In this document: positions 1 through 30,813 of the stretch, one piece after another
How positions within the stretch are numbered: position 1 is the first letter of the stretch
Layout of the letters: each line of letters begins with the position of its first letter
From: Chrysomallon squamiferum
Lineage: Eukaryota; Mollusca; Gastropoda; Neomphalida; Peltospiridae
Length of the DNA stretch: 64,000 nt
Assembly: GCA_012295275.1 (NCBI GenBank)
Contig: CM022668.1
Coordinates: 4,715,802-4,779,801 of the forward strand
Direction of reading: 5' to 3'
Position numbers and translations under genes: made by a program
Notes under the pieces: generated by a model
What the model was told of the DNA's origin: nothing
Seen by the model: the letters and a program-made list of their open reading frames with translations, nothing else
Databases searched by the model: none

Positions 1-611
1 AATTTCTTATTTTTTTCTCATTTTGTTTCATATTTTTATGCTATATCTAATTTTAATAACAATTTCTATTTGTTTTTTTATAATTTTATTTGATTTTGAT
101 ACACATTTGTTATTTTATAATTTTCTTTCTTATTATATTAATTACTAATATTAAAGTTATTTCAGGTGTTTTAAAAAAAAAAAAAAAAAAATAGTTTTGA
201 TTTTAATAATAGTTTCTTATTTTAATAACACTTATTCTTATGCTAATTTTTAATTTTAATATCAGTTTCTATCTTTCTAATTATTTTTGATTTTAATAAG
301 ATTTAAAAAAATTAAAAAATCTATTGTAGTGATTCTGGTTTCAATTTGTAATAATTTGTGATTTTAATTTATACTTGGTGACTTTATTTCTAACTTCTCA
401 TTTTAATTATAAATTATAATTTTTCCATTGTAGTTTCTAATGTTAATTGTAAGTTTTAATGCTGGTTTCTAATCTACAGATCTGGGATATGGACAGTGTT
501 ATGATCAGAGAAATACATTTTGGCACTTCTCATTTTAATTATAAATTATAATTTTTCCATTGTAGTTTCTAATGTTAATTGTAAGTTTTAATGCTGGTTT
601 CTAATCAACAG
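1..611 (+). other. 3' part of an intron of the WD-repeat gene
   Basis: AT-rich intronic sequence upstream of the first exon in the window, with a short poly-A run near 172-190 and no open coding segment. Its last 219 bases hold one full and one partial copy of a 132-bp direct repeat (separate entry). It ends in CAG at 609-611, the 3' splice site of the first exon. Confidence 0.7.
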
Positions 612-656
612 ATCTGGGATATGGACAGTGTTATGATCAGAGAAATACATTTTGGT
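393..656 (+). repeat. 132-bp direct duplication covering a 3' splice site and exon start
   Basis: Bases 393-524 and 525-656 are near-identical. Each copy has about 87 nt of intron, the acceptor (CTACAG or CAACAG) and the first 44-45 nt of the exon. The upstream exon copy (from 480) has no donor and hits TAA after the duplicated part, so only the downstream acceptor (612) leads into the full exon. Confidence 0.9.
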
Positions 657-1237
657 TACCCTGTAACTGCCGTCTGCTTTCTGAACTCTCGCAGTGACCT
701 CCTCATTGGAGTCAACAATTATGTCATGTAAGTGTCACGTTTCCATGACAACAGTTTCAAAACCTTTGTTGCATAATGCACAATATGTTCTTTTAGCTTC
801 ATGTATCAACCATGAGAAATTCAAAACCCATATTGCTAAGATTCATGTATTACATTATGCCTGTAACATCATGCAAGTGACTGTTTCCATGACAACAACT
901 ATACAACCTATTTTGCTGCAAAATTCATGCATCATAGCATTGTTAGTTTCATGTATTGATGGCATCAGTTTTAAAACATTTACAATTCATTCATTATATT
1001 ATGCACATTACATTACGTAAGTGCCATCATGTATCCATGACAACAGAAGAGGTAACAGTTTCAAAACCTTGTTGCTACAAATCATGCACTGTGTTATACA
1101 CATTTTATATACATATTTATATATATATATTTTTGTTTTGTTTTTTTGTTTTTTCTGACTGAGTTCACGGCATTTCTGGACTAATTAAATTGATGAGTAG
1201 AAACTATATTATAAGACTGAACATATATATATATATA

Positions 1238-10221: not shown

Positions 10222-11990
10222 CAATAATAACATTATTATTATTATTATTATTTTAATTTTTTTTGGTTTAAAGATATAAAATATTGTGTTTTCTAAAGAA
10301 CTTTTTGACATTAAGAAAAATAGCATAAATAAATAACTACTATTGAAAAATTAATTATATTTTTTGAAATAACTAATCAGTTATATATATATATATATAT
10401 TTCTAAATGTCTGTCTCTATGAATAGTGAAAACAGAAACATTAAATATATATTTGTAGAATGATTTTGATAAATAATTTACAAAAAAATCAAAAACTGGA
10501 CAGAAAAGAAAGACAAATATATTTATAAATTTATTTATTTATTTAAGACACTGTTCAGGAAATGATCAGAGTGTGTGATGTGTCGCTGTTGCCATGGGAC
10601 CTGTATCTGTTAAACAGAAAGCCTATAGTAGCCCCTGACGGGTACATTCCAAACTCCATAGTTCGTAAGAAAATCAAGTGGAAATCCCCCACCCCACGAC
10701 CCACCCCTACCCCAGCCAGGTGGGAGCCGTTGCCAGTAAGTGGTGTTTTTGAAAAACTAAATCAAACTGTTAACTTTGAATTGCCAGCTAAATATTACTG
10801 ACTTGTATTAATTATTAATTATGTTTTTAATTATTTTCTTTTAATTGTTGATTTTAAATTGTTAACATTTAATTATTAATTATTAGGCGTTAATATTTAA
10901 TTATTTTCTTGTAATTGGTAATTATTAATTATTAATATTTAATTTTATACGTTTAATTGTTAATTATTCATTAATCTTATTAATTATGCACTTTTGATTG
11001 TTAATTATAGTTATTAATATTTAATTAGATATACTTTTAATTGTCAATTATTAGTTACTAATAAATTATTCATATTAATAACTGTTAATTGTTAATTATT
11101 ACTATTTAATTGTACACTTTTAACTGTTAATTGTTAATTATTATTTAATTGTACACTTTTAACTGTTAATTGTTAATTATTAATATTTAATTGTATACTT
11201 TTGACTGTTAATTGTTAATTATTAATATTCAGTTGTATACTTTTGATTGTTGATTGTTAATTATTAATACTTAATTGTACACTTTTAATTGTTAATAATT
11301 AATTTTAAATGTTTATTTCTTGCTAGTTACCAGAGGGAGATGATCTCTGGATATACACACCAGACGATGATGTCAAAACAGTCTCTGATGTAAGAACATT
11401 GCTGTTGTAGTAGAAGTAGTAGTAAATTATAGTAGTAATAACAGTTTAGTAGTAGTAATAGTAGCATTTACATATATTAACAAGAGATACAAATATATTC
11501 ACACAAATTATACATACATACACACACACACAAATTTGAGTAGTTCATTTAAGAACGTGTATGTATGAGAGTGTACACAATGCTGCGAGTAAGTGAAATC
11601 TAACTTATTAAATTATTCACTCAATTTTTCATTGATTGTTCATTGAGCTAATTGAAAAATTCAAACATGGCATCACTTTATTTCCTTTTACTGTTAGTAT
11701 ATTATTGATCAGGCTGTTTGGATGTCTGAGGACCTGCATACTGAATCATTGTTTATGTATTTACATAAGTATCCACATTTATTACAGGTTTCATACTGGC
11801 ACCATGTCAGTTATAGCTTGTGTGTTCACAAAGATGTAGTCAGTTGAATATCAGACTTGACTGATGTCTTTGAAAACACATACAGCACTATGATGTCATA
11901 AAATATTTTGTGTTTATGAAGTTTAAAGAAAGATCTTTCAAAAGCATCTTTAATGTTATGAAGTCATAAATGTTGTTTTTTTGCAGTATT

Positions 11991-12447: not shown

Positions 12448-14791
12448 GAATTACAGGTAAATAATAATAATAATAATACTAACAATAACAATTAATAATT
12501 GCTAATATTTAAAAAAAACATCTCTTTTTAAGCTTTTGACATAGAACCAAGGACTGGACCCTCTAAATTGGTAAACAATTTTTATTTATTTATTTTTCAT
12601 TTATCTTTTTAATTACAAAAATTTTAATGAGGAAAAAAACCCACACAAAATAAAACAGTGCTAAATGTTTGGAATCTGATAACATAAATCTGTTTAATAA
12701 AATAATTATAAAATGGATGTACAGTATGTTGTAGAAAACTTTTCATATCCAAAATAGTCAAAGTATTAACTAGAATGAGTGGTTGTATAGTGTGATATGT
12801 TTGTAACTTGAATTTATTTGTAATTGTAACAGGTCTTTGTGTAGTGTAACATTAATTTGTAACATTTACATGTGTTGTAATGTAATATTAATTTGTGTCT
12901 TTTTGTGTAATATTAGTTTCTATTTTACAGTGTAATATTAATTTGTGTTTTATAATGAAATATTAATTTATGTTTTACAGTTTAATATTTGTGTTTTATA
13001 ATGTAATATTAATTTGTGTTATAGTGTAATATTAATTTGTGTTTTACAATGTAATATTAATTTGTGTTTTATAATGTAATATTAATTTGTGTTTTATAGT
13101 GAAACATTAATTTGTGTTTGGTAGTGTAATATTTGTGTTTTATAGTGTAATATTAATTTGTGTTTCTAAAGTGTAATATTTATTTGTGTTTTATAGTGTG
13201 TATATATATGTAAGTATGTATGTATGTATGTGTGTGTGTGTGTGTATGTCTACAAATATATATATATATACATACAGCATCCACTTATGTCACTGATTCG
13301 GAAACTTGCCGCAGAGAAATGGTTTCATGGAGACCAAAACAAAACTCTTCACCTCTCGCTGGAGGAGTTGTTGAAGTTGTTGGCTGTACACGACCGAAAC
13401 CTGCACCGTCAAGTGTGTGATTACATCATAGAGTTCAACAAGTACGTTTTTCTTCTTTCTTTGTGTTATTTAACATCACAGAGTTCAACCAGTACATTTT
13501 TCTTCTTTCTTTGTGTTAACATCATAGAGTTCAACAATTACGTTTTTCTTCTTTCTTTGTGTTATTTAACATCATAGAGTTCAACAATTACGTTTTTCTT
13601 CTTTCTTTGTGTTATTTATCATCATAGAGTTCAACAAGTATGTTTTCTTCTTTCTTTGTGTTATTTATCATCATAGAGTTCAACAAGTATGTTTTTCTTC
13701 TTTCTTTGTGTTATTTATCATCATAGAGTTCAACAAGTATGTTTTTCTTCTTTCTTTGTGTTATTTATCATCATAGAGTTCAACAAGTGTGTTTTTCTTC
13801 TTTCTTTGTGTTATTTAACATTACAGAGTTCAACAAGTACATTTTTCTTCTTTCTTTGTGTTATTTGTTTAACATTACAAAGTTCAACAAGAATGTTTTT
13901 TCTTCTTCATTTGTGGTTTTATTTTATAACATATTGTTTCCTGTTTAAATTTGTATGTTTATTTCTGTTATTTTATTTATTTATATTTTATTTTGTATTA
14001 TATTGTGTGTTATTTAATTTCTTGTATTTTTTATTTTATATTATGTTGTTTGCTGTTTAATTTGTTGTGTGTTTATTCTATTTAATTTAATTTAATTTTT
14101 TATTTCTTATTTCTTATTTATGCCTATATGTATAGCTAAATTTGTGTTTGTATGTGTGTATGTATGTGCGTATGCATGCTCATGTTTACATATCTGTATA
14201 TATGTGTGTATGTTTATGCATACATTTATGTATTAATGCATATCTTTATAATGTGTATTTGTGTGTATGTACAGATAGGTACACATAAAAACATCAGCCA
14301 CACACTCACAAATTTACTTATACGTGTTTTCACATCCACAGACTAAATGCCATCAACCCAAAGTACCGCGACAAGTTTGTGACTGTTTTACGAAAACAGC
14401 TGCACTTGCCAACGCCATTCATGAGGCAGGACTCACTGCGGACACTGAGAGAGTTGGTGGATCGCAACTACCACGACGTTGACGAGCTTGTCAATGCAAT
14501 CCTTCCTTTGCTCTTTGATCCAGATGTGAGTTGCCTGCTGTCTTCTTACAGATCTCACAGACTGATTGTGTCTGACTAATGTAATTGTAACACTTCAAAG
14601 GCAGGACAACATTTCTGTGATGTTTGTTAATTTAAAGGCACCATGTCAGAAATGTTAAAGTCAAAGGCAACATGCTAGCATTGTGTAAATTTGAAGTCAC
14701 TATGTGAACAGTGTAAATTTAAATACAAGGTTTTATATAATTTATTATCTTTATTTTATTTATTATCATTATTATTATTGTTACTATTTAC

Positions 14792-14827
<36 letters not shown>

Positions 14828-15074
14828 TATTATTACTATTATTATTACTAGTGTTATTATTACTATTATTATCACTTTTATTATTATTATTATTACAACT
14901 ACTACTGTTATTATTATTATTATTATTGTTATAATTATTGTTAATTTACTATTATTATTACTACTTATATTATTATAGTTATTATTATTATTATTATTAT
15001 TATTGTTATTATTATTACTATTATTATTATTATTACTATTATTATTTTTATTATTATTATAGTTATTATTATTT

Positions 15075-15105
<31 letters not shown>

Positions 15106-16164
15106 TATTATTACAGTTATTGTCATTATTATTATTATTGTTATTATTACTACTTTTATTATTATTACTACTGTTATTGTTATTATTATTATTATTGTTA
15201 TTATAGTTATTGTTATTATTGTTACTACTGTTATTATTTACATCAGGAACATGTGAAAGTTGAAGCAATACTGACTCTAAGGAAGTTCACAGGGCTGGAA
15301 TCTGAGGAGGAGCTGATAGCTCTGATGAAGGAGAGGGGGCTTTTCACAGAGGGGGGATTAGAAATGGAACAGGTAATCTGTTTTGATGTACACAGACATA
15401 ATTATACAGGTACCAGACTAATGTGTGTCTGTATATGTGCATGTGTGTCTGTGTGTGTGTTTGTGTTAATTTATGTGTATGGGTGTACCAGGGGGTGTGT
15501 ATGTCTGTATGTATGTGTATGTTTGTGTTTTTTGTGTATATTTGTGTGATTTTGTATGTGCATGTGTCTCTGTGTGTTTGTACGAGGCTTGAATATATGT
15601 TTATATGGAAGTGTGTGTACCTGCGTGTTTGTTTCCTTACCTCTGTGTGTCTGTACATGCATGTGTTTGTGTATGTGTGTGTGTATGTGTGTATGTGTAC
15701 ATGTGTGTTTGTGTGTGTATGTTTGTGTGTACATATGTATGTTTGTACATGTATGTGTTTGTGTGTATGTACATGTGTGTGTGTATGTGTGTGTAAGTGT
15801 GTGTGTACATGTCTGTGTGTGTGTGTATGTCTGTGTTTGTGTATGTGTGAGTGTGTACATGTCTGTGTGTGTGTGTGTGTGTGTACATGTGTGTGTATGT
15901 GTGTGTGTACATGTCTGTGTGTGTACGTGTATGTGTACATGTATGTGTGTGTACATGTCTGTGTGTATGTGTGTGTGTGTGTGCATGTGTGTATGTGTGT
16001 ACATGTGTGTGTATGTGTGTGTGTGTATGTGTATGTGTCTGTGTAACACAAACAGTAATGTTTTACAGGATGAGCTGGAGAAGGTAGAGTCAATGGAGGA
16101 CAGGTTACTTCTCACAAGAGATGAGACGTCAGTGACAGTGTGCGTGTATGTGTGAGTGTGTACA

Positions 16165-16207
<43 letters not shown>

Positions 16208-17555
16208 GTGTACATGTGTGTGTGTGTGTGTGTATGTGTGTGTGTGTGTATGTGTCTGTGTAACACAAACAGTAATGTTTTACAGGATGAGCTGGAGAAG
16301 GTAGATTCAATGGAGGACAGGTTACTTCTCACAAGAGATGAGACGTCAATGACAGTGCGTGTATGTGTGAGTGTGTACATGTGTGTGTGTGTATGTGTGT
16401 GTGAGTGTGTACATGTCTGTGTGTGTGTACGTGTCTGTGTAACACAAACAGTAATGTTTTACAGGATGAGCTGGAGAAGGTAGATTCAATGGAGGACAGG
16501 TTACTTCTCACAAGAGATGAGACGTCAGTGACAGTGTGCGTGTATGTGTGAGTGTGTACATGTCTGTGTGTACGTGTGTGTGTACGTGTTTGTGTGTGTG
16601 TGAGTGTGTACATGTCTGTGTGTGTGTATGTGTCTGTGTAAACAAACAGTAATGTTTTACAGGATGAGCTGGAGAAGGTAGATTCAATGGAGGACAGGTT
16701 ACTTCTCACAAGAGATGAGACGTCAGTGACAGTGTTAAAACGTCAGGACACGTGGGTCAGCTTAGGATCTGAAGCAGAAGTTAAACTGGTTTGTTATTAT
16801 TAATGTTATAAAAACAATGCAGTTAATAACAGTTTTGTCTCACGTTTCAGTGCAGAGACTTCAATAATTAACAAAAACTGATTTTCAACATGTCGTTATG
16901 CATACACATTTTGATTCAATTCTTGAACCCTAGCAATACATGTTGTAGCTGATTTTCAGTTGCACCATAATAATGACGTTCATGTTGAAAATTGATAATT
17001 TGAATGATAAATCCATTTAGAAATTTCAAAAATAATCTTTTCATATCCATTTTATAGATCTTTTATAATCTAGCATAAATGAGAAGTAATAAAGTTCTAA
17101 AGATCACCCATGAACATTATAACAGCTCATTATATACATCTGGATGCATCTATCTTATGTTGAGTTAAAAAGATAAATTGGCTAATAATGAATGGAAATC
17201 AGTTAAAATAATAAAGTAATGAATATAGAGTATATTTTTAAAAAAAAAAAAAAAAAAAATTATGGTACTTGAACTTTTTCTCTGGATGAAATTGTAATAA
17301 ATTATTCATGTTTTTCTTTATTGTGTCCATGTGCCATACACTGACAACATTTATTGTTATACATGCTGCTGCTGCTGTTGGTGTTGTTGTTCTTCTGTTT
17401 GGTCTTCTTATTATTATCATCAGCATTATTATGCCATCATACTCAGCAACAGCATCATTATAATCATCATCATCATAGCTGCTGTTTTCATTAGCATTTT
17501 TATCATCATTAGTAGAATGTTGACTTTTTGTTTTTATTGTTATTATGATAGCTAT

Positions 17556-19079: not shown

Positions 19080-20533
19080 TTGTTTATTTCTTTGTTTTTT
19101 GTTTTGTTTATTTATTTATCTTTTTATTTATTTATTTATTTGTTTGTTTATTTATTTATTTATTGTTTATTTCTTTGTTTTTTGTTTTGTTTATTTATTT
19201 ATTTATCTTTTTATTTATTTATTTGTTTGTTTATTTATTTATTTATTTATTTATTTATTGCTTTATTTGTTTGTATTTTGTTTTGTTTATTTATTTATCT
19301 TTTTATTTATTTATTTGTTTATTTATTATTTTATTTATTTATTTGTTCATTTATTTATTTATTTTATTTGTTTGTTTGTTTATTGCTTTATTTATTTATT
19401 TATTGCTTTATTGCTTTATTTGTTTGTTTTGTTTATTTATTTATCTTTTTATTTATTTATTTGCTTATTTGTTTATTTATTATTTTATTTATTTATGTGT
19501 TCTGTTATTTATTTATTTTATTTGTTTATTGCTTTATTTATTTATTTAATTTATTAATTTATTAATTAATTAATTTATTTATTTATTTATTTACTGATTT
19601 ATTTCAGTGTCTTTGAAGTTAACACCCTCTGGAAAGATTAGCAGAGAAGAGTTACAACGTGCAGGTACGTTTTTTAATTAATTCATCCATCCATCCATCC
19701 ATCCATCCATCTGCCCATCCAAAGGTATTCATTTACTTATTCACATAATTATTCTTCCACATTTATTATATATTTCTTAGTTGTTACTAATTTCATTCCT
19801 TTATCAAACTGTCCTTCTGTCTGTCTGTCTGTCAGCACCTCTGGTCATACATTTACACCATCTGTTAAAGTTTATATCTTAGTGAAATAGTCTAAATATG
19901 AACCTTTATTAATAATAAAGAACAATAATAAAAGAGAACAGTAAAAAAAAAAAGGGAATAATTTAACAGAATACTTGATATTGAAATTGCTTAGGAATAA
20001 AAATATTGTAATAGTAGATCGTTTGTTTTTAACTTTTTTGTCCTGTTTGTGGGTGTGGGTGTTTTTTATGTCTGTGTGTGCAATTGAGTATGTACGTGTT
20101 TGACAAGTAATATTAACTTTATATTACTATTACTATTTATTTATTTGTTCATCTTTTTTCATGATTTAATTCACTTATTTATTAACATTTTCAATAATTT
20201 AATATTATACTTGCTTTATCTGTTTATTCATTTCTTCATTTGTTCACTTACTTATTGATTCATTTATTCATTCATATCTTTATCCATTTATTCACATTAA
20301 TATTTTCAGTGAAAACCTCAGGATTAGGAAAGGACCTTATAGATCAGATCAGAGGTTAAAATGAATTTTTAACTTTATTTTTACCTTGAGGCTTCAGAGG
20401 TCAAACTAAACTGGTGTTCTTGTAGGCTATTTCCCATAACACCCACTGTTCCTTGACCTGCTTGCTTACCAAAGGCTGTTTTATTATTTATTTATTTATT
20501 TATTTATTATATTTATTTATTTATTTATTATAT

Positions 20534-20564
<31 letters not shown>

Positions 20565-20726
20565 TTATTGTAAATATTATAGCTATTATTCTTATGTTTA
20601 TTATTAATATTATTAATTATTATTATTAACATCATCATCATTTTTATTATTGTTATTATTGTTAGAATATTGTTATTATTATTGTTATTTTCATTATTAT
20701 TACTTTCTTATTACTATTCTTCTTTA

Positions 20727-20757
<31 letters not shown>

Positions 20758-23700
20758 ATGTCTATTTATCATTTATTATTATTTTTTTTTATTGTTTGTG
20801 GGTAGGTAAATACAGAACAGTCCTTACAGCTAATGAATAAAAGTGACCTATGGAGAATTATTGGAAGGTTTCTTCTGTACTTACTGACCACTAACATTAA
20901 ACTTTTAGAAGTTTCATAAACTGTCATATTAAACAATTACTTACTGTCCCAGATAACAGTTGTTTGTTATTTACATTTCGTTATTTTAAGTCAGACTTCA
21001 CAAACACATTCTTCTAACCATCCACCCTTCATTCATCCACATATCCTTTCATCCATCCACTCATATATTTATTATCTTTTTATCTTTCATATGTGTGTGT
21101 ACGTGTGTGTGTCTGTGTGCACACAAATTCATACATGCAGAAATACATGAAAATCTGACCATACTCTAACACACACACACATATACATGCACAGCATAAG
21201 TCCTATATATAAACACAGAACTGTGTCCATGTCTGTTTGTCTGTTCACATTATGATTTGCTTACAGACAGACTGTCACCTGGAGCTAGAGCCTTGGCAGA
21301 AGAACTGGAAAGAGAAACTGGTAAAAAAAAAACCCCATTTATTCATCCAACTTTCTTCTTCTTTCCCTTCCACCATACCTTCATTCTATTTCTTTTTTTT
21401 TTTTTTGTTTCTTTTACTTTTATTTGTTTAGTTTCTGTTACTATTTAATATGAATACAGTCAGTTATTAACTAAATTTTCCCTTCTTTTGAACATTCTTT
21501 AACATATACATTTTTTTCTCTTCATTTGTTTATTTATTCATTAATCCATTCATATGATAGGTGCTTAGTTGTTTATAATGTTAGTAAAATATGTTAATCA
21601 ACTATTTAACAACTTATTCATTCATCCATTTTCTTCTATATCCATCTATTTACTTTTATAATCAGATTTAAATCAGTTATTTATACTGATTAAAAATTTA
21701 TGCTTTCATTCATTCATTCATCTGTATTTTCATTATACTTAAAACAATATTTTAAGAAGTGATTTACACTATTTAACAACATATTAATTTATTTATATAT
21801 TCATTAGATTAATAAGATTTAAATCAGCTATACCATGTTTTAGCTTTATAATTTATTTGATTTATTTTTCTAGATATTCATTGTATTAATACAATATTTA
21901 TATATTTATTCATTTATTCACTTACCTAACCATTAGATTAATATGATTTTCATAAATTGTAGCATTTTATCATTTATTTAGTTATGTACACCATTTTTAC
22001 CATTTATTCACTTGACTATTCCTAATATTAATAAGATAACTAAATTATTATTTATACATCTTTATTCATTTATTCACTTTTATATTCATAATATTAATAA
22101 CATAACTAAATTATCACTTATACCATTTTAATTATTTATTACATGCATATTCATAATACTGATATAATAAGTAAATTTTATAACTTATTCATTAATATAT
22201 TTAGCCGTATATTCATTGTATTCATAAGACATTAACACATTTTACATTTATTACATCAGTATCTGCATTAATTTATTGAACTATGCCTAAATTTATTTAT
22301 TCCTTTATTTTTATTTATTTATTTATTTTATTTTATTTTATTTATTTTTATTATTATTAATTTTTTTTGTTATGCTGTAGTATCCTTATCACCTACTGAT
22401 CTCAAAGAAAAAGCAGAATTAGTCGATGAAGGTAAAAGTCTGTTCTTTCCGTCTGTCTGTGTGTCTGTCTGCCCATCATCAAACTGTAATAAATAGCTTT
22501 TTGTTTTTAGCTTATAAACTATTCTCCATATAAATAATAATTAATTTACAAGTCTATTTATTCATTAATTTATTTATTCATTAATTGTCCACAAAAACTT
22601 CCATATCTTATCTTTCTGTTTAGCTCATTAATGTTTTCATACATTCAGTATTAAAACTGCTTATATATATATATAAATATATCATGTATTAAATTGGCTC
22701 TTTACTTTATGTTTTTAGGGGGGTTTTGTTTTATTATTATTATTATCTGTGGGATTTTTTTATGGCTTTTTTAATTATTTATTTATTTATTTATTTTTTT
22801 TGTATATATATATATATATTTTTTTTTTCAGCCAGAGAAAGGTTGTCAACTCCTGAGAAAATGAAAGGTTAAAGTTGTATACAATTTCTAACACTGACTT
22901 CATCATCACACACCCTCCACCATAACTATCTCAATACACCCTCCAACATAACTATCTCAATACACCCTCCAACATAACTATCTCAATACACCCACAAAAT
23001 TGATTAGCATCAGTACACCCAGCAACTTCATTATCATATCAAAGCCACCAACTTCATTATCATATCAAAGCCACCAACTTCATTATCATAACAAAACCAC
23101 CAGCTTCATTATCATATCAAAACCACCAACTTCATTATCATAACAAAACCACCAACTTCATTATCATAATAAACTCATCAGAATCATTATTACCATAAAT
23201 CTCAACATTATCATCAGTACATCCACTGATTTTATTATCATTACACTCATCAGTTTTATTATCATTATATACATCAGTTTTACTATCATTACACCCATCA
23301 GTTTTATTATCATTACACCCATCAGTTTTACTATCATTACACCCATCAGTTTTATTACCATTACACCCATCAGTTTTACTATCATTACACACATCAGTTT
23401 TATTATCATTACACCCATCAGTTTTACTATCATTACACACATTAGTTTTATTATCATTACACTCATCAGTTTTATTATCATTACACTCATCAGTTTTATT
23501 ATCATTACACACATCAGTTTTATTATCATTACACCCATCACACCCATCAGTTTTACTATCATTACACACATCAGTTTTATTATCATTACACCCATCAGTT
23601 TTACTATCGTTACACCCATTAGTTTTATCATTATACACATAAATTTTATTATCATTACAAACATCAGTTTTATTACCATTACACACATCAGATTTATTAC

Positions 23701-24155
23701 TATCACCAGACCTACCAACTTTATTACTATCATCATAGACCTACTAACTTAGTTATCATAAGTATTCCCATCACCCTTGTTACCATTGCATCATTCATCT
23801 GTCAGTTCTTACTAATTTATTCATTTGGTTATTTATTTAAACTTTTTTTCATATTTCATTCCGTCATTTATTAATTTTATTAATTTGTTTCTTCTTTCAT
23901 TCACTTATCCATAAATTTATCTAGCTGAAGGTGTTTTGGCTGGAGTGAAGGAAGAAAAAGGTTATATATATTTTACATCAGAACATCTGTGAATATATGT
24001 AGGTGTGTGCGTGTGTGTATGTGCATGTGTGTGTGCGCCTGCCTGCATGCGTGTGTGAATGCGTGCGTGTGCATGCATGTGTGTGTGTGTGTGCATTTAT
24101 GTATTTGTATATGTATTTAGGCAAGTAGGTATGTATGCATGTATGTATGTATGAA

Positions 24156-24190
<35 letters not shown>

Positions 24191-27100
24191 ATGTGCATGC
24201 ATGTGTATGGATGTATATATCTATACGTTTGTGTATGTGTTTATGGGTGGGTGTGTATATGTGTTATATATTACATCATACATATTTCTAGGTATGTAAG
24301 TATATATATATATATATATATAGCTATGTAAATTTGATCATATATGTGTCAGTGGATGCTTCTGTCTGTATACTGGTCCATACATACAACTGTACATCAC
24401 TGATTAATTCATTCATTCATTTACTTGCACTACTTTTGTCTGGCCCATAAACACACATGTAATTTATATTCATCCATTTATTCATATATTCTAATTCATT
24501 CATTTATTTCCCTCTCTTGTATTCATTTGTTCACTATTTAGTTTATTCCATTTGTGCCTTTGTTCATCTACTTATTCATTAATTATATTTACTTACAGAA
24601 ATTTCTGACATTTCTGAAAAGGAAAAAAAAGGTTAATTTTCTTTTTTTTTTCTTCTTTTTTTTTCATCTATCCATTCATATATCCATTTTTCTGTCTATT
24701 AGTCCATCCATCCATCCATTCATCCAACCATCCATCGATACATACATCATTTTTATTATTTATTTATTTATTTTTCATTCACTTATATTTATTTAGTCAT
24801 TTACTTACAGGAGTTTTGGATACTTCTGAAAAGGAGAGAAAAAGTTAATGTTCATCTTTTCTTTCATTTAACTATTCACACATCTGTTTTTCCATCCATC
24901 ATTCTATATTTTTAATTTTTTTTAAATATTGTTTTTTTTTTTTTTATTATATATTTTTTTCATACATAGTGTTCATCTTTTAATTTACAGGAGTTTTGGA
25001 TATTTCTGGAAAAAAGAAAGAAGGTTAAATTTTTTTATTTATTATTATTTGGTTTTTTTATCTGTTATTTGACACACCCAATATTCCATCCATCAATTCA
25101 TCTGTCTATAAATATATAACCTTTTTTTTTTTTAGTTGTTTAGTCATTTTTTTTCCATTCACTTATATTTATTTGTTCATTTACTTACAGGAATTTTGGA
25201 CACTGCTGAAAAGGAGAGAAAAGGTAAATATTCGTCTTTTTTTTTGCATTTAACTATTCATACGTCTGTTTTTCCATCCATCACTCTGTTTATCCGTAAG
25301 TACATATATCTTTTTTTTTTTTTCTTTTTTTATATATTCTTTTCATTTTTAAATAATTTTCTTTTCTTTTCTTTTTTTTTTTTTTATTTTTCATTCACTT
25401 ATAATTATTCATTTATTTATTTATTTACAGGAATTTTGGACATTTCTGAAAAGGAGAAAGAAGGTAAATATTTCTTTTTTTTTTTTTTTCTTTCATCTCT
25501 TTTTTAACAAACCTGTTTAACCATCCATCAATCCTTGTGTCTATAAATATATTATCTTTTTTATCAGTTCATTTTTTTTCATTCACTTTTAATTATTCAT
25601 TTGTTTATTTACAGGAGCTTTGGACATTTCTGAAAAGGAGAAAAAAGGTAAATTTATTTATTTTATCTTATTTTTTATATCTATTATTTAACACATCCAT
25701 TTAACCATCCATCAATACATCTGTCTATAAATATATAACCTTTTTTATTACTTGTTTATTCATTTCTTTTGTTCACTTATATTTATTCGATCATTTATTT
25801 ACAGGTGTTTTGGACATTTCTGAAAAGGAGAAAGAAGGTAAATGTTTTTATTTTTTTTTTTTTTTTATCTATTATTGAACATACCCATTTAACCATTCGT
25901 CAATCCATCTGTCTATAAATATATAGCCTTTTTTATTACTTGTTTATACTTTTTTTTTTTTAGTTCACTTATATTTATTCATTTATTTACTCTTACAGGA
26001 GTTTCAGACATTTCTGAAAAGGAGAAAGAAGGTAAATGTTTTATTTTTTATTTTATTTTTATGTAATATTTAACACACCCATTTAACCATTCATGTGTCT
26101 ATCTGTCTATAAATATATAATCTTTTTTAATACTTGTTTATTCATTTTTTTCATTCACTTATAATTATTCATTTATTTATTTATTAACAGGAGTTTTGGA
26201 CATTTCTGAAAAGGAGACAGAAGGTAATTTTTTAATTTTTTTAATCTATTATGTAACGCCCATTTAACCATTCATCAATCCATCTGTCTATAAATATACA
26301 ATCTTTTTTATTACTTGTTTATTATTTTTTATTTTTTTTGTTCACTTATATTTATTCATTTATTTATTCTTACAGGAGTTTCGGAAATTACTGAAGAGAA
26401 AGAAGGTTAATTTATTTAATTTTTTTTAAATTTATTTTTTTGTCTATCATTTAGCACATCCATTTTTCCACCCACCAATCCATCCATCCATAAACACACA
26501 CATCTTTTTTATTACTTGTTTATTTATTCTTTTATTTCTTTTGGTTCACTTACAATTATTCATTTATTTACTTACAGAAGATCTGGATAGTTCCAAAAAG
26601 AGGAAAGGTTAATCTTCTTTAATTTGTCTATCAGTTAACACCAGCATTATATCCATAATTTTTGAAAAACACACACACACACACACACACACATGCAAAC
26701 ACATACATGCATGTATATGTGTATATATACATGTACCAACACACATATACAGAGACAAATGCACACTTTTTAGTTTATTTGTTTCTTTTAATTTTTTATC
26801 TTTATTTTTTTATGCTATTATTTATATTTTGTTATTGTTATTTTATGTATTTTTTAAATTTTTTCAACTGTTGTATTTTTTCATGTGTCTGATGTGAAAT
26901 ACATCTTTCATATTTTTCACTCTCTTTTTTTTTTCTTTTTCTGCAGAAATGGAGGTGATTGTCAAAATGTCAAAACCTCGCAGAAAATCTGCAGAAGTAA
27001 GGCAAACTTCATTACTTTGCTAGTTTATATGGTCACTTAACAGTTTTAATTTAGTACTAGTTACATTTACTAGTGCCATTAGCAGCTTCACCAGTTGCTG

Positions 27101-30100
27101 TGGCAACATCCTAGTTTTGTAACAGATTTCATTAGTTACATCAGTAACTTTGCTAGTTATTGTGTGTAAAGTTAGTAATAGTGAGAGTAATTTCACTTGC
27201 AGTATTGTTAACATCTGTAATGCTTTTGTTACTACACTACTTATGGCAACAGATTTGCAAGTTGTAATAGTATCTTCAGTAGTTATACCAGTATACTTAC
27301 TAGTTTTATCAGCAGCTTCACTAGTTAACTGGTAACATCACTAGTTATATCAGTTATATCTTTAGTAGTTTTATCAACAGACTCACTAACTGTATTGTTA
27401 ACTTCACTAGTTTTATCATTAGCTTCACTATATATATACAGTTTCACTAGTTTTATTGGTAACTTAATTAGTTATGTCAGTGACTTAAATAGTTTTATTA
27501 GTAAATTCACTAGTTTTATTGATCTGTAACTTCCTTAGATTTGTAAATAACTTCACTAGAGATAGATATGTAACTTCACTAGCTCTATAAGTAATATCAC
27601 CAGCTATACATCAACATATGTCCATCAGTCTCATTCTCTGAAAGTACATGCGTGTGTGTGTGTGTCTGTCTGTCTGTCGAAGCATCAACAAGAAAACAAA
27701 CAAATAATTAATCCTGAGCTAATTATTCATCCATCTAGGTAACTAAACGTGATACCATGCATGGAAGAGATGAATATGAACTGGGAGTGAGGACACCTAG
27801 CCCCACCCTCAGCCTGGAGGGAGAGGTAGGGACAGAGGATGAGCTTGGTAGTGAAGATGACAAGGCCAAAGAGAAAAAAGCCTTGGAGAAGTTTGATCGT
27901 CTTGGCATCAAAATGTTAAAGCTGGCCATGGCTTCTGAGGCAGGACATTTACCTGTAGGTATAGGGCAGAGAGGGACACAAGTTGATTAAGTTGTAAACT
28001 GTGTGTAACCAGTGACAGACAGTTGTTGTGTAGTTTAAAGTACAGGGCAGAGAGGTTGATTAAGTTGTAAACTGTGTGTAACCAGTGACAGACAGTTGTT
28101 GTGTAGTTTAAAGTATAGGGCAGAGAGGGACACAAGTTGATTAAGTTGTAAACTGTGTGTAACCAGTGACAGACAGTTGTTGTGTAGTTTAAAGTATAGG
28201 GCAGAGAGGGACACAAGTTGATTCATTTGTAAACTGTGTGTAACCAGTGACAGACAGTTGTTGTGTAGTTTAAAGTACAGGGCAGAGAGGGACACAAGTT
28301 GATTCATTTGTAAACTGTGTGTAACCAGTGACAGACAGTTGTTGTGTAGTTTAAAGTACAGGGCAGAGAGGTTGATTAAGTTGTAAACTGTGTGTAACCA
28401 GCAACAGACAGTTCTAGTTTAAAGTACAGGGCAGAGAGGGACACAAGTTGATTGAGTTGTAAACTGTGTGTAACCAGTGACAGACAGTTGTAGTTTAAAG
28501 TACAGGGCAGAGAGGGACACAAGTTGATTGAGTTGTAAACTGTGTGTAACCAGTGACAGACCAACAAGTTGATTGAGTTGTAAAGTAACCAGTGACAGAC
28601 AGTTGTTGTGTAGTTTAAAGTACAGGGCAGAGAGGGACACAAGTTGATTAAGTTGTAAACTGTGTGTAACCAGTGACAGACAGTTGTTGTGTAGTTTAAA
28701 GTACAGGGCAGAGAGGGACACAAGTTGTGTGTAACCAGTGACAGACAGTTGTTGTGTAGTTTGTAAACAAGTTGATTAAGTTGTAAACTGTGTGTAACCA
28801 GTGACAGACAGTTGTTGTGTAGTTTAAAGTACAGGGCAGAGAGGGACACAAGTTGATTAAGTTGTAAACTGTGTGTAACCAGTGACAGACAGTTGTTGTG
28901 TAGTTTAAAGTACAGGGCAGAGAGGGACACAAGTTGATTAAGTTGTAAACTGTGTGTAACCAGTGACACAGTTGGGACACAAGTTTTAAAGTACAGGGCA
29001 ACCAGACAGGGACACAGTTGTTGATAGTTTAAAGTTGTAAACTGTGTGTAACCAGTGACAGACAGTTGTTGTGTAGTTTAAAGTACAGGGCAGAGAGGGA
29101 CACAAGTTGATTAAGTTGTAAACTGTGTGTAACCAGTGACAGACAGTTGTTGTGTAGTTTAAAGTACAGGGCAGAGAGGGACACAAGTTGATTAAGTTGT
29201 AAACTGTGTGTAACCAGTGACAGACAGTTGTTGTGTAGTTTAAAGTACAGGGCAGAGAGGGACACAAGTTGATTAAGTTGTAAACTGTGTGTAACCAGTG
29301 ACAGACAGGGTACAGGGCAGAGAGGGACAGAGTTGTAAACTGGGACACAAGTTGATTGAGTTGTAAACTGTGTGTAACCAGTGACAGACAGTTGTAGTTT
29401 AAAGTACAGGGCAGAGAGGGACACAAGTTGATTGAGTTGTAAACTGTGTGTAACCAGTGACAGACAGTTGTAGTTTAAAGTACAGGGCAGAGAGGGACAC
29501 AAGTTGATTGAGTTGTAAACTGTGTGTAACCAGTGACAGACAGTTGTAGTTTAAAGTACAGGGCAGAGAGGGACACAAGTTGATTGAGTTGTAAACTGTG
29601 TGTAACCATACCAGTGACAGACAGTTGTTGTGTAGTTTAAAGTACAGGGCAGAGAGGGACACAAGTTGATTGAGTTGTAAACTGTGTGTAACCAGTGACA
29701 GACAGTTGTTGTGTAGTTTAAAGTACAGGGCAGAGAGGGACACAAGTTGGTAAACTGTGTGTAACCAGTGACAGACAGTTGAGTTTTAGGGAGTTGTAAA
29801 CTGTGTGTAACCAGTGACAGACAGTTGTTGTGTAGTTTAAAGTACAGGGCAGGGACACAAGTTGATTAAGTTGTAAACTGGGACACAGACAAGTTGATTG
29901 TAAACTGTGTTAACCAGTGAAACTGTTTAAAAAGTACAGGGCAGAGAGGGACACAAGTTGATTGAGTTGTAAACTGTGTGTAACCAGTGACAGACAGTTG
30001 TTTGTAGTTTGTAGTTTGACAGACAGTTGTTGTGTAAAAGTACAGGGCAGAGAGGGACACAAGTTGAGTAAACTGTGTGGACAGACAGTTGAGTTTACAG

Positions 30101-30813
30101 GGCAGAGAGGGACACAAGTTGATTAAGTTGTAAACTGTGTGTAACCAGTGACAGACAGTTGTTGTGTAGTTTAAAGTACAGGGCAGAGAGGGACACAAGT
30201 TGATTAAGTTGTAAACTGTGTGTAACCAGTGACAGACAGTTGTTGTGTAGTTTAAAGTACAGGGCAGAGAGGGACACAAGTTGATTAAGTTGTAAACTGT
30301 GTGTAACCAGCAACAGACAGTTGTTGTTTGTGTTGATTGAGTTGTAAAGTTAGTTTAAAGTACAGGGCAGAGAGGTTGATTAAGTTGTAAACTGTGTGTA
30401 ACCAGCAACAGACAGCTGTTGTGTAGTTTAAAGTACAGGGCAGAGAGGGACACAAGTTGATTAAGTTGTAAACTTTGTGTAAAGTTAAAAGTGTTATCAG
30501 TGCTTAGTGTGAAACAGTGTGAGCACTAAGTCGTGTAGCATGATACCATGGCTTGCATGCTTTAGCCTTCCTCACTACTGTGATAAGTGTGTCATGTTAT
30601 TTACTCACAATGCTTAATAAATTTAGTTGTAGTTATCAGTTAATATCCCATTCCAGACTGAGCTTGATATTTATTTTGAGGAATATGCTATGTTATGTGA
30701 ATAATAATAAAGTACAGATACATACATACACACACACATACATACATACATACAAACATACATACCCTAAAGACAGGGAGACACTCATTTGTATTACAAA
30801 CACAAACATAATT

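Follow-up and report, generated by a model that had tools for sequence, protein, structure and literature searches.

How does a protein come by a repeat in which each copy occupies an exon of its own, and what does selection hold on to once such a row of exons exists? We address this at a locus of the gastropod Chrysomallon squamiferum (assembly GCA_012295275.1, contig CM022668.1, positions 4,715,802 to 4,779,801, forward strand), a stretch of 64,000 nt here called the window. The locus keeps both the exon and the intron copies of one expansion, so that growth of a protein repeat by exon-intron duplication is directly visible, and it shows selection on splicing and reading frame far above selection on the peptide. 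Its best explanation, which we regard as very probable, is that symmetric exon units were duplicated in tandem and are spliced as ordinary exons, adding charged spacer in a WDR87-like gene.

The microexon array and the small exons upstream

The array consists of eleven microexons (nine of 33 nt and two of 30 nt), all of phase 1-1 and each with AG before and GT after it, at start-to-start distances of 212, 180, 200, 240, 184, 190, 194, 192, 185 and 202 bp. The tandem array is thereby confirmed, to the nucleotide, as it was first described, in number, lengths, phase, spacing (180-240 bp) and the acceptor and donor of each microexon. The original prediction that each unit codes for a peptide near GVLDISEKEKE stands as a consensus, from which units 1 (EISDISEKEKK) and 11 (EDLDSSKKRK) are clearly diverged. 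The parts of the array are as follows (a slash marks the exon end):

24599..24631, + strand: microexon 1, 33 nt, phase 1-1, EISDISEKEKK, donor AAG/gttaat
24811..24843, + strand: microexon 2, 33 nt, GVLDTSEKERK, donor AAA/gttaat, without G at -1
24991..25023, + strand: microexon 3, 33 nt, (G/R)VLDISGKKKE, donor AAG/gttaaa
25191..25223, + strand: microexon 4, 33 nt, GILDTAEKERK, donor AAG/gtaaat
25431..25463, + strand: microexon 5, 33 nt, GILDISEKEKE, donor AAG/gtaaat
25615..25647, + strand: microexon 6, 33 nt, GALDISEKEKK, donor AAG/gtaaat
25805..25837, + strand: microexon 7, 33 nt, GVLDISEKEKE, donor AAG/gtaaat
25999..26031, + strand: microexon 8, 33 nt, GVSDISEKEKE, donor AAG/gtaaat
26191..26223, + strand: microexon 9, 33 nt, GVLDISEKETE, donor AAG/gtaatt
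26376..26405, + strand: microexon 10, 30 nt, GVSEITEEKE, donor AAG/gttaat
26578..26607, + strand: microexon 11, 30 nt, diverged, EDLDSSKKRK, donor AAG/gttaat
24632..26577, + strand: span of the ten short introns (147-207 nt), mostly mutual copies
26947..26996, + strand: predicted exon downstream of the array, entered in phase 1 (EMEVIVKMSKPRRKSAE), donor GAA/gtaagg

The acceptor reads TTACAG in ten of the eleven units and TAACAG in unit 9, the donor begins with GTTAA in units 1-3, 10 and 11 and with GTAA in units 4-9, and TTCACTT lies within 60 nt upstream of 9/11 array exons. A splice-aware gene model of 104 kb (30 kb upstream, the window and 10 kb downstream) chains all eleven microexons, three of which are among its 16 training exons, in phase 1-1 and in one frame into exon 26947-26996. 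Of two such models, the first (123 exons) over-predicts and the second (93 exons, on the 104 kb) keeps many doubtful exons outside the parts tabulated here. Separately, CAGGAG stands at the exon start of units 2, 3, 6, 8, 9 and 10, a possible tandem acceptor three bases apart whose use would drop one residue.

Two 36-nt phase 1-1 exons upstream look, by sequence, like older relatives of the array units. Among 307 open phase-1 candidates in the 104 kb, 287 do not overlap the array exons; ranked by how well they align to the array, the best four of them (scores 22.5, 18.0, 18.0 and 17.0; next 14.0) are these two exons, each counted twice, at its own start and at an internal one. Further small symmetric exons are predicted ahead of them, and the gene model has an unbroken series of 17 symmetric phase 1-1 exons between 19608 and 26607.

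23925..23960, + strand: probable diverged older unit, 36 nt, phase 1-1, AEGVLAGVKEEK, acceptor tctag (the gene model chose a later AG, 23931)
22832..22867, + strand: probable diverged older small exon, 36 nt, phase 1-1, ARERLSTPEKMK
19608..22431, + strand: further symmetric phase 1-1 small exons, predicted by the gene model only, at 19608-19664 (57 nt), 20310-20354 (45 nt), 21267-21320 (54 nt) and 22381-22431 (51 nt)

The host gene

The array had been placed in a WD-repeat gene of ciliary type. A WD-repeat gene of flagellar type is supported: the host is WDR87-like, being colinear with proteins of amphioxus, a hemichordate, echinoderms and a bear. The parts that carry this assignment are:

609..727, + strand: last WD-repeat exon, QIWDMDSVMIREIHFGYPVTAVCFLNSRSDLLIGVNNYV, homologous to WDR87-like proteins by tblastn, its end set from the donor CAT/gtaagt
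10548..10735, + strand: exon with IVAPDGYIPNSI, common to all five WDR87-like proteins compared
14342-14525 and 15247-15372, + strand: helical HEAT-like exons, apparently colinear with WDR87-like proteins, with the array after them

In tblastn, the matches of five relatives are colinear; they start 14.5 kb upstream of the window and continue over 609-725 and 10625-10735 and, weakly, 13287-15378. Their N-terminal WD region gives ordered matches from 14.5 kb upstream to window position 725 (best E 2.8e-6, many single matches weak), and an APDGYIPNS motif is matched from window 10625-10631 in 5/5 relatives (47-85% identity over 12-36 residues, E 0.011-0.15). In the joined translation, residues 280-620, which hold the motif and the helical part, match Branchiostoma lanceolatum WDR87-like (P0001; 7.1e-7, 25% identity), and a sequence search with two query lengths matched two amphioxus proteins only. 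The WD part of the B. lanceolatum protein has 49 matches, which include other amphioxus proteins, WDR87-like proteins of Glandiceps and Ursus, and proteins of Amphiura and Apostichopus with 52-55% identity to the B. lanceolatum one; the remainder are mostly general WD proteins. These two echinoderm relatives carry only the name 'uncharacterized protein'. A search of the whole genome with P0001 gave no match and missed the host gene itself, and so is uninformative. 'HEAT-like' is our own reading of the helical part, whose single exons match the relatives weakly (E 2.4-3.9); five exons gave nothing above cut-off in Pfam, and the best match in PDB by sequence had an E of 0.075.

Beyond the HEAT-like part (13287-15378) tblastn found no homology to the WDR87-like relatives, which would place the array in a lineage-specific tail. 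The relatives (P0001, P0005, P0006, P0007 and P0035) resemble the host in the colinear WD part, the APDGYIPNS motif, apparently the helical part, and a charged tail, and differ from it in that the 11-residue repeat is absent from the last 700 residues of the four that are informative, P0005 being short (1085 aa) and without the tail. The only 5-mers repeated in the relatives' last 700 residues are STAPT in P0001 and EEEEE in P0005 and P0006. In 4/4 relatives E, K, D and R make up 29-33% of the tail after the HEAT-like part versus 17-19% of the first 700 residues; in the array peptide they make up 55%. The array comes after the conserved part, within a linker that is charged and changes fast. 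The relatives' C-terminal FG..W motif had no match to a narrow regular expression on the unspliced 104 kb, in which introns may split the motif and beyond which it may lie. WDR87 is reported, in a review, to be located in the sperm mid-piece and to form a complex with CFAP47 (PMC11506864).

Duplication of units and selection on splicing and frame

The introns had been described as copies of each other, and this is borne out for most of them. Normalised alignment scores between introns average 0.41 (0.19-0.72), versus a mean of 0.13 and a maximum of 0.21 for dinucleotide shuffles; three pairs (1-2, 3-4 and 4-6, at 0.19-0.20) are within the shuffle range, and introns 2 and 4 form a separate subtype with a mutual score of 0.39. 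For 25387-26536, which is part of the array, Tandem Repeats Finder gives periods of 194 and 382 bp. These periods and the homology of the introns support growth of the repeat by duplication of whole exon-intron units of about 190 bp, as had been proposed. In a tree of whole units, unit 2 groups with unit 4 with a support of 95 (remaining nodes 24-86), and this pairing together with the double period suggests that some duplications took two units together. Exon gap counts from the unit comparison include free-end-gap artefacts and were left out of the assessment.

Selection was assessed on the same tree by parsimony and simulation. The AG and GT columns show 0 changes across the 11 units, and the steps per column are 1.06 in exons and 1.70 in introns away from splice sites, where 21/123 columns are invariant. 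In neutral simulations (2000 runs per setting), which take the counted units to be all units, the 22 splice sites and 11 open frames were all kept with P <= 0.002 (0 runs at full branch lengths, and <=0.2% with halved branches and no indels); the regular spacing leaves little room for dead internal units. Frame keeping as evidence on its own was rejected as weak; by reading of the unit alignment, most intron indels fall in T runs and few in complex stretches. Among units, purifying selection on the array amino acids was not detected from codon positions (1.09, 1.18 and 0.91 steps per column), from changes relative to the consensus (9 synonymous, 29 non-synonymous and 0 stop, with shared changes counted once in each unit; neutral expectation 26/70/4%), or from the nine 33-nt units, whose 17 distinct changes comprise 5 synonymous, 4 conservative and 8 radical ones, a neutral-like mix. 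Splice sites and frame are kept and the peptide hardly, so that spacer length and charge would matter more than sequence; the units appear to behave as spliced exons whose exact sequence hardly matters.

Neutral-looking peptide evolution would also suit a non-coding intronic satellite, in which the microexons are what is left, as unspliced AG-ORF-GT stretches, of a single ancestral exon. In the window's first 60 kb, 7.1% is tandem repeat of period 100-500, versus 1.5% in a genome sample (19 pieces of 10 kb, spread over the genome), and other arrays in the host gene hold partial exon copies that on reading appear dead, both of which fit such a satellite; the survival of every one of the 22 splice sites and 11 open frames does not, and we consider this explanation unlikely. 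Better kept splice sites than codons could further point to poison or recursive splice elements, whose sites would serve to define a long linker intron or to delay its splicing, and not to code. Poison exons, however, would be expected to hold stops or frameshifts, and length and frame are kept in 11/11 units, which leaves such elements very improbable.

Under the preferred explanation of tandem-duplicated, spliced exon units, a block of ~190 bp with one complete symmetric (phase 1-1) small exon and both of its splice sites would have been duplicated in tandem, partly two units at once, by unequal exchange or slippage in a tandem-repeat-rich WDR87-family gene. Copies that caught only part of an exon (13423-13922 and 15939-16440) appear, by reading, to be dead. 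All 2048 exon subsets have lengths that are multiples of three and 0 have a stop or broken frame, in agreement with the earlier claim that neither copy-number change nor skipping of any subset can break the frame, and copies could be spliced in without harm for this reason. Each unit included in the mRNA would lengthen by ~11 residues a charged spacer, probably disordered, that follows the HEAT-like part.

The donors differ along the array. T is found at +3 in 0/12 homology-anchored donors of the host gene, which were picked by eye from 16 (four unclear ones were dropped, one of them offering a GTT site), versus 5/11 array donors, and the GTAA donors of units 4-9 resemble most of the 12. The outer units 1-3, 10 and 11 are predicted to be skipped more often, and the inner six, 4-9, are likely to be constitutive. 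GTTAA donors also occur at two other predicted linker exons (ends 20354 and 22867); such donors may therefore not be weak in this gene, which weakens the prediction of outer skipping.

A reading that extends the preferred explanation, and does not exclude it, is an intron-bearing coding minisatellite, whose copy number varies among individuals and species and whose many unit combinations give a range of sperm-protein spacer lengths. We put this forward tentatively, as a possibility that we do not expect to hold. It fits the preserved frame of every exon subset, the GTTAA donors on the outer units, the double-unit period with best intron partners that are not neighbours (e.g. 2 with 4), and the expansion and contraction of chicken BG small exons (PMC4046983); the units are well diverged (pairwise identity 0.66-0.90 for introns and 0.63-0.94 for exons), which argues that the array is not very young. 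Rather doubtful is its form as a sperm-flagellum coding minisatellite, in which units would turn over by unequal exchange, the peptide would drift freely with splicing and frame kept, and the GTTAA outer donors would yield graded spacer lengths, possibly different from one individual to another and responsive to sperm competition. Should copy number or inclusion vary, WDR87-like proteins would be a natural test of flagellar spacer length.

Known small-exon arrays and other repeats

Tandem small-exon arrays are already known from a few genes, and the array here is outside the BG, titin and MEG families. Davis et al., in 1988, reportedly described tandemly repeated exons of 81-base repeats. What the present array shares with BG- and PEVK-type arrays is tandem homologous exon-intron units of symmetric phase.

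The cytoplasmic tails of chicken BG have 13-36 tandem exons of 21 (sometimes 24) nt that code for one 7-residue repeat each and whose number varies between genes, with expansion and contraction (PMC4046983). The likeness lies in tandem tiny exons that each code for one peptide repeat. As described there, BG differ in being Ig-superfamily membrane proteins with presumed coiled-coil heptads, in forming a multigene family and in having been compared with cDNA; their 21-nt heptad exons lie behind Ig-V and transmembrane exons, whereas the units here have 33 or 30 nt (11 or 10 residues) in a WD-repeat gene. The spring region of titin has many short PEVK exons rich in P, E, V and K that expanded by exon duplication and are commonly missed by annotation (PMC6469411). 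Such runs of short duplicated exons resemble the array; titin differs in being a muscle protein with varied exon lengths, those here being almost uniformly 33 nt. Schistosome MEGs likewise have runs of very small symmetric exons whose skipping need not shift the frame, and one exon duplication (PMC4350168, PMC10526429). They differ in coding for secreted proteins mostly from microexons, with introns of up to ~5 kb, whereas the host here is a WD-repeat gene with predicted exons of up to 825 nt (others of 188 and 184 nt) and array introns of 147-207 nt. The claim that such an array had not been described in a WD-repeat ciliary-type gene holds among the open-licence PMC papers listed in literature searches (most subscription papers fall outside them), where no tandem microexon array in a WD-repeat gene was found; the type of array is not new, being known from BG, titin PEVK and MEGs.

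Within the 404.6-Mb genome (22 contigs), a 34-letter exon pattern with <=3 mismatches matches only this array, in 5/11 units, and so misses diverged copies, the other 6/11 units included. A DNA search of the genome gave 88 matches, three of them in the array; the other 85 involve little but low-complexity intron stretches of the query. Over the 104 kb, an ungapped profile scanned on both strands listed nothing beyond the array units, and Rfam gave 0 matches at gathering scores in the window. An apparent second array downstream of the window (73087-73762, in piece L012), with ORFs every ~324 bp that resembled 42-nt phase-1 exons, was rejected: on reading the sequence, these ORFs are the 5' part of a longer exon of an apparent fibrinogen-domain gene. 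At L012:9087-9840 and L034:560-2230, an apparent fibrinogen-domain gene has the 5' part of one exon three times, in a 324-bp unit.

Other repeats were observed in and around the host gene. At 393-655, a 132-bp tandem duplication (99% matches) takes in the acceptor of the last WD exon together with the exon's 5' part. At 13423-13922, ~10 tandem 50-bp copies hold the 3' end of predicted exon 13278-13441 and its donor (ATAGAGTTCAACAA/GTACG), forming a row of donor-like sites. At 15939-16788, a 217 bp repeated unit with an exon (DELEKVDSMEDRLLLTRDETSVT...) is present four times; copies one to three pass into TG repeats and seem to be cut short. An 81-bp satellite of about 30 copies occupies 27955-30455, beginning near the predicted end of exon 27739-27954. 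Elsewhere, one sampled piece of the genome (L029, C10:8000001-8010000) is 98% tandem repeat with periods of 10-99 bp and a GC content of 20%, and is perhaps a centromeric satellite.
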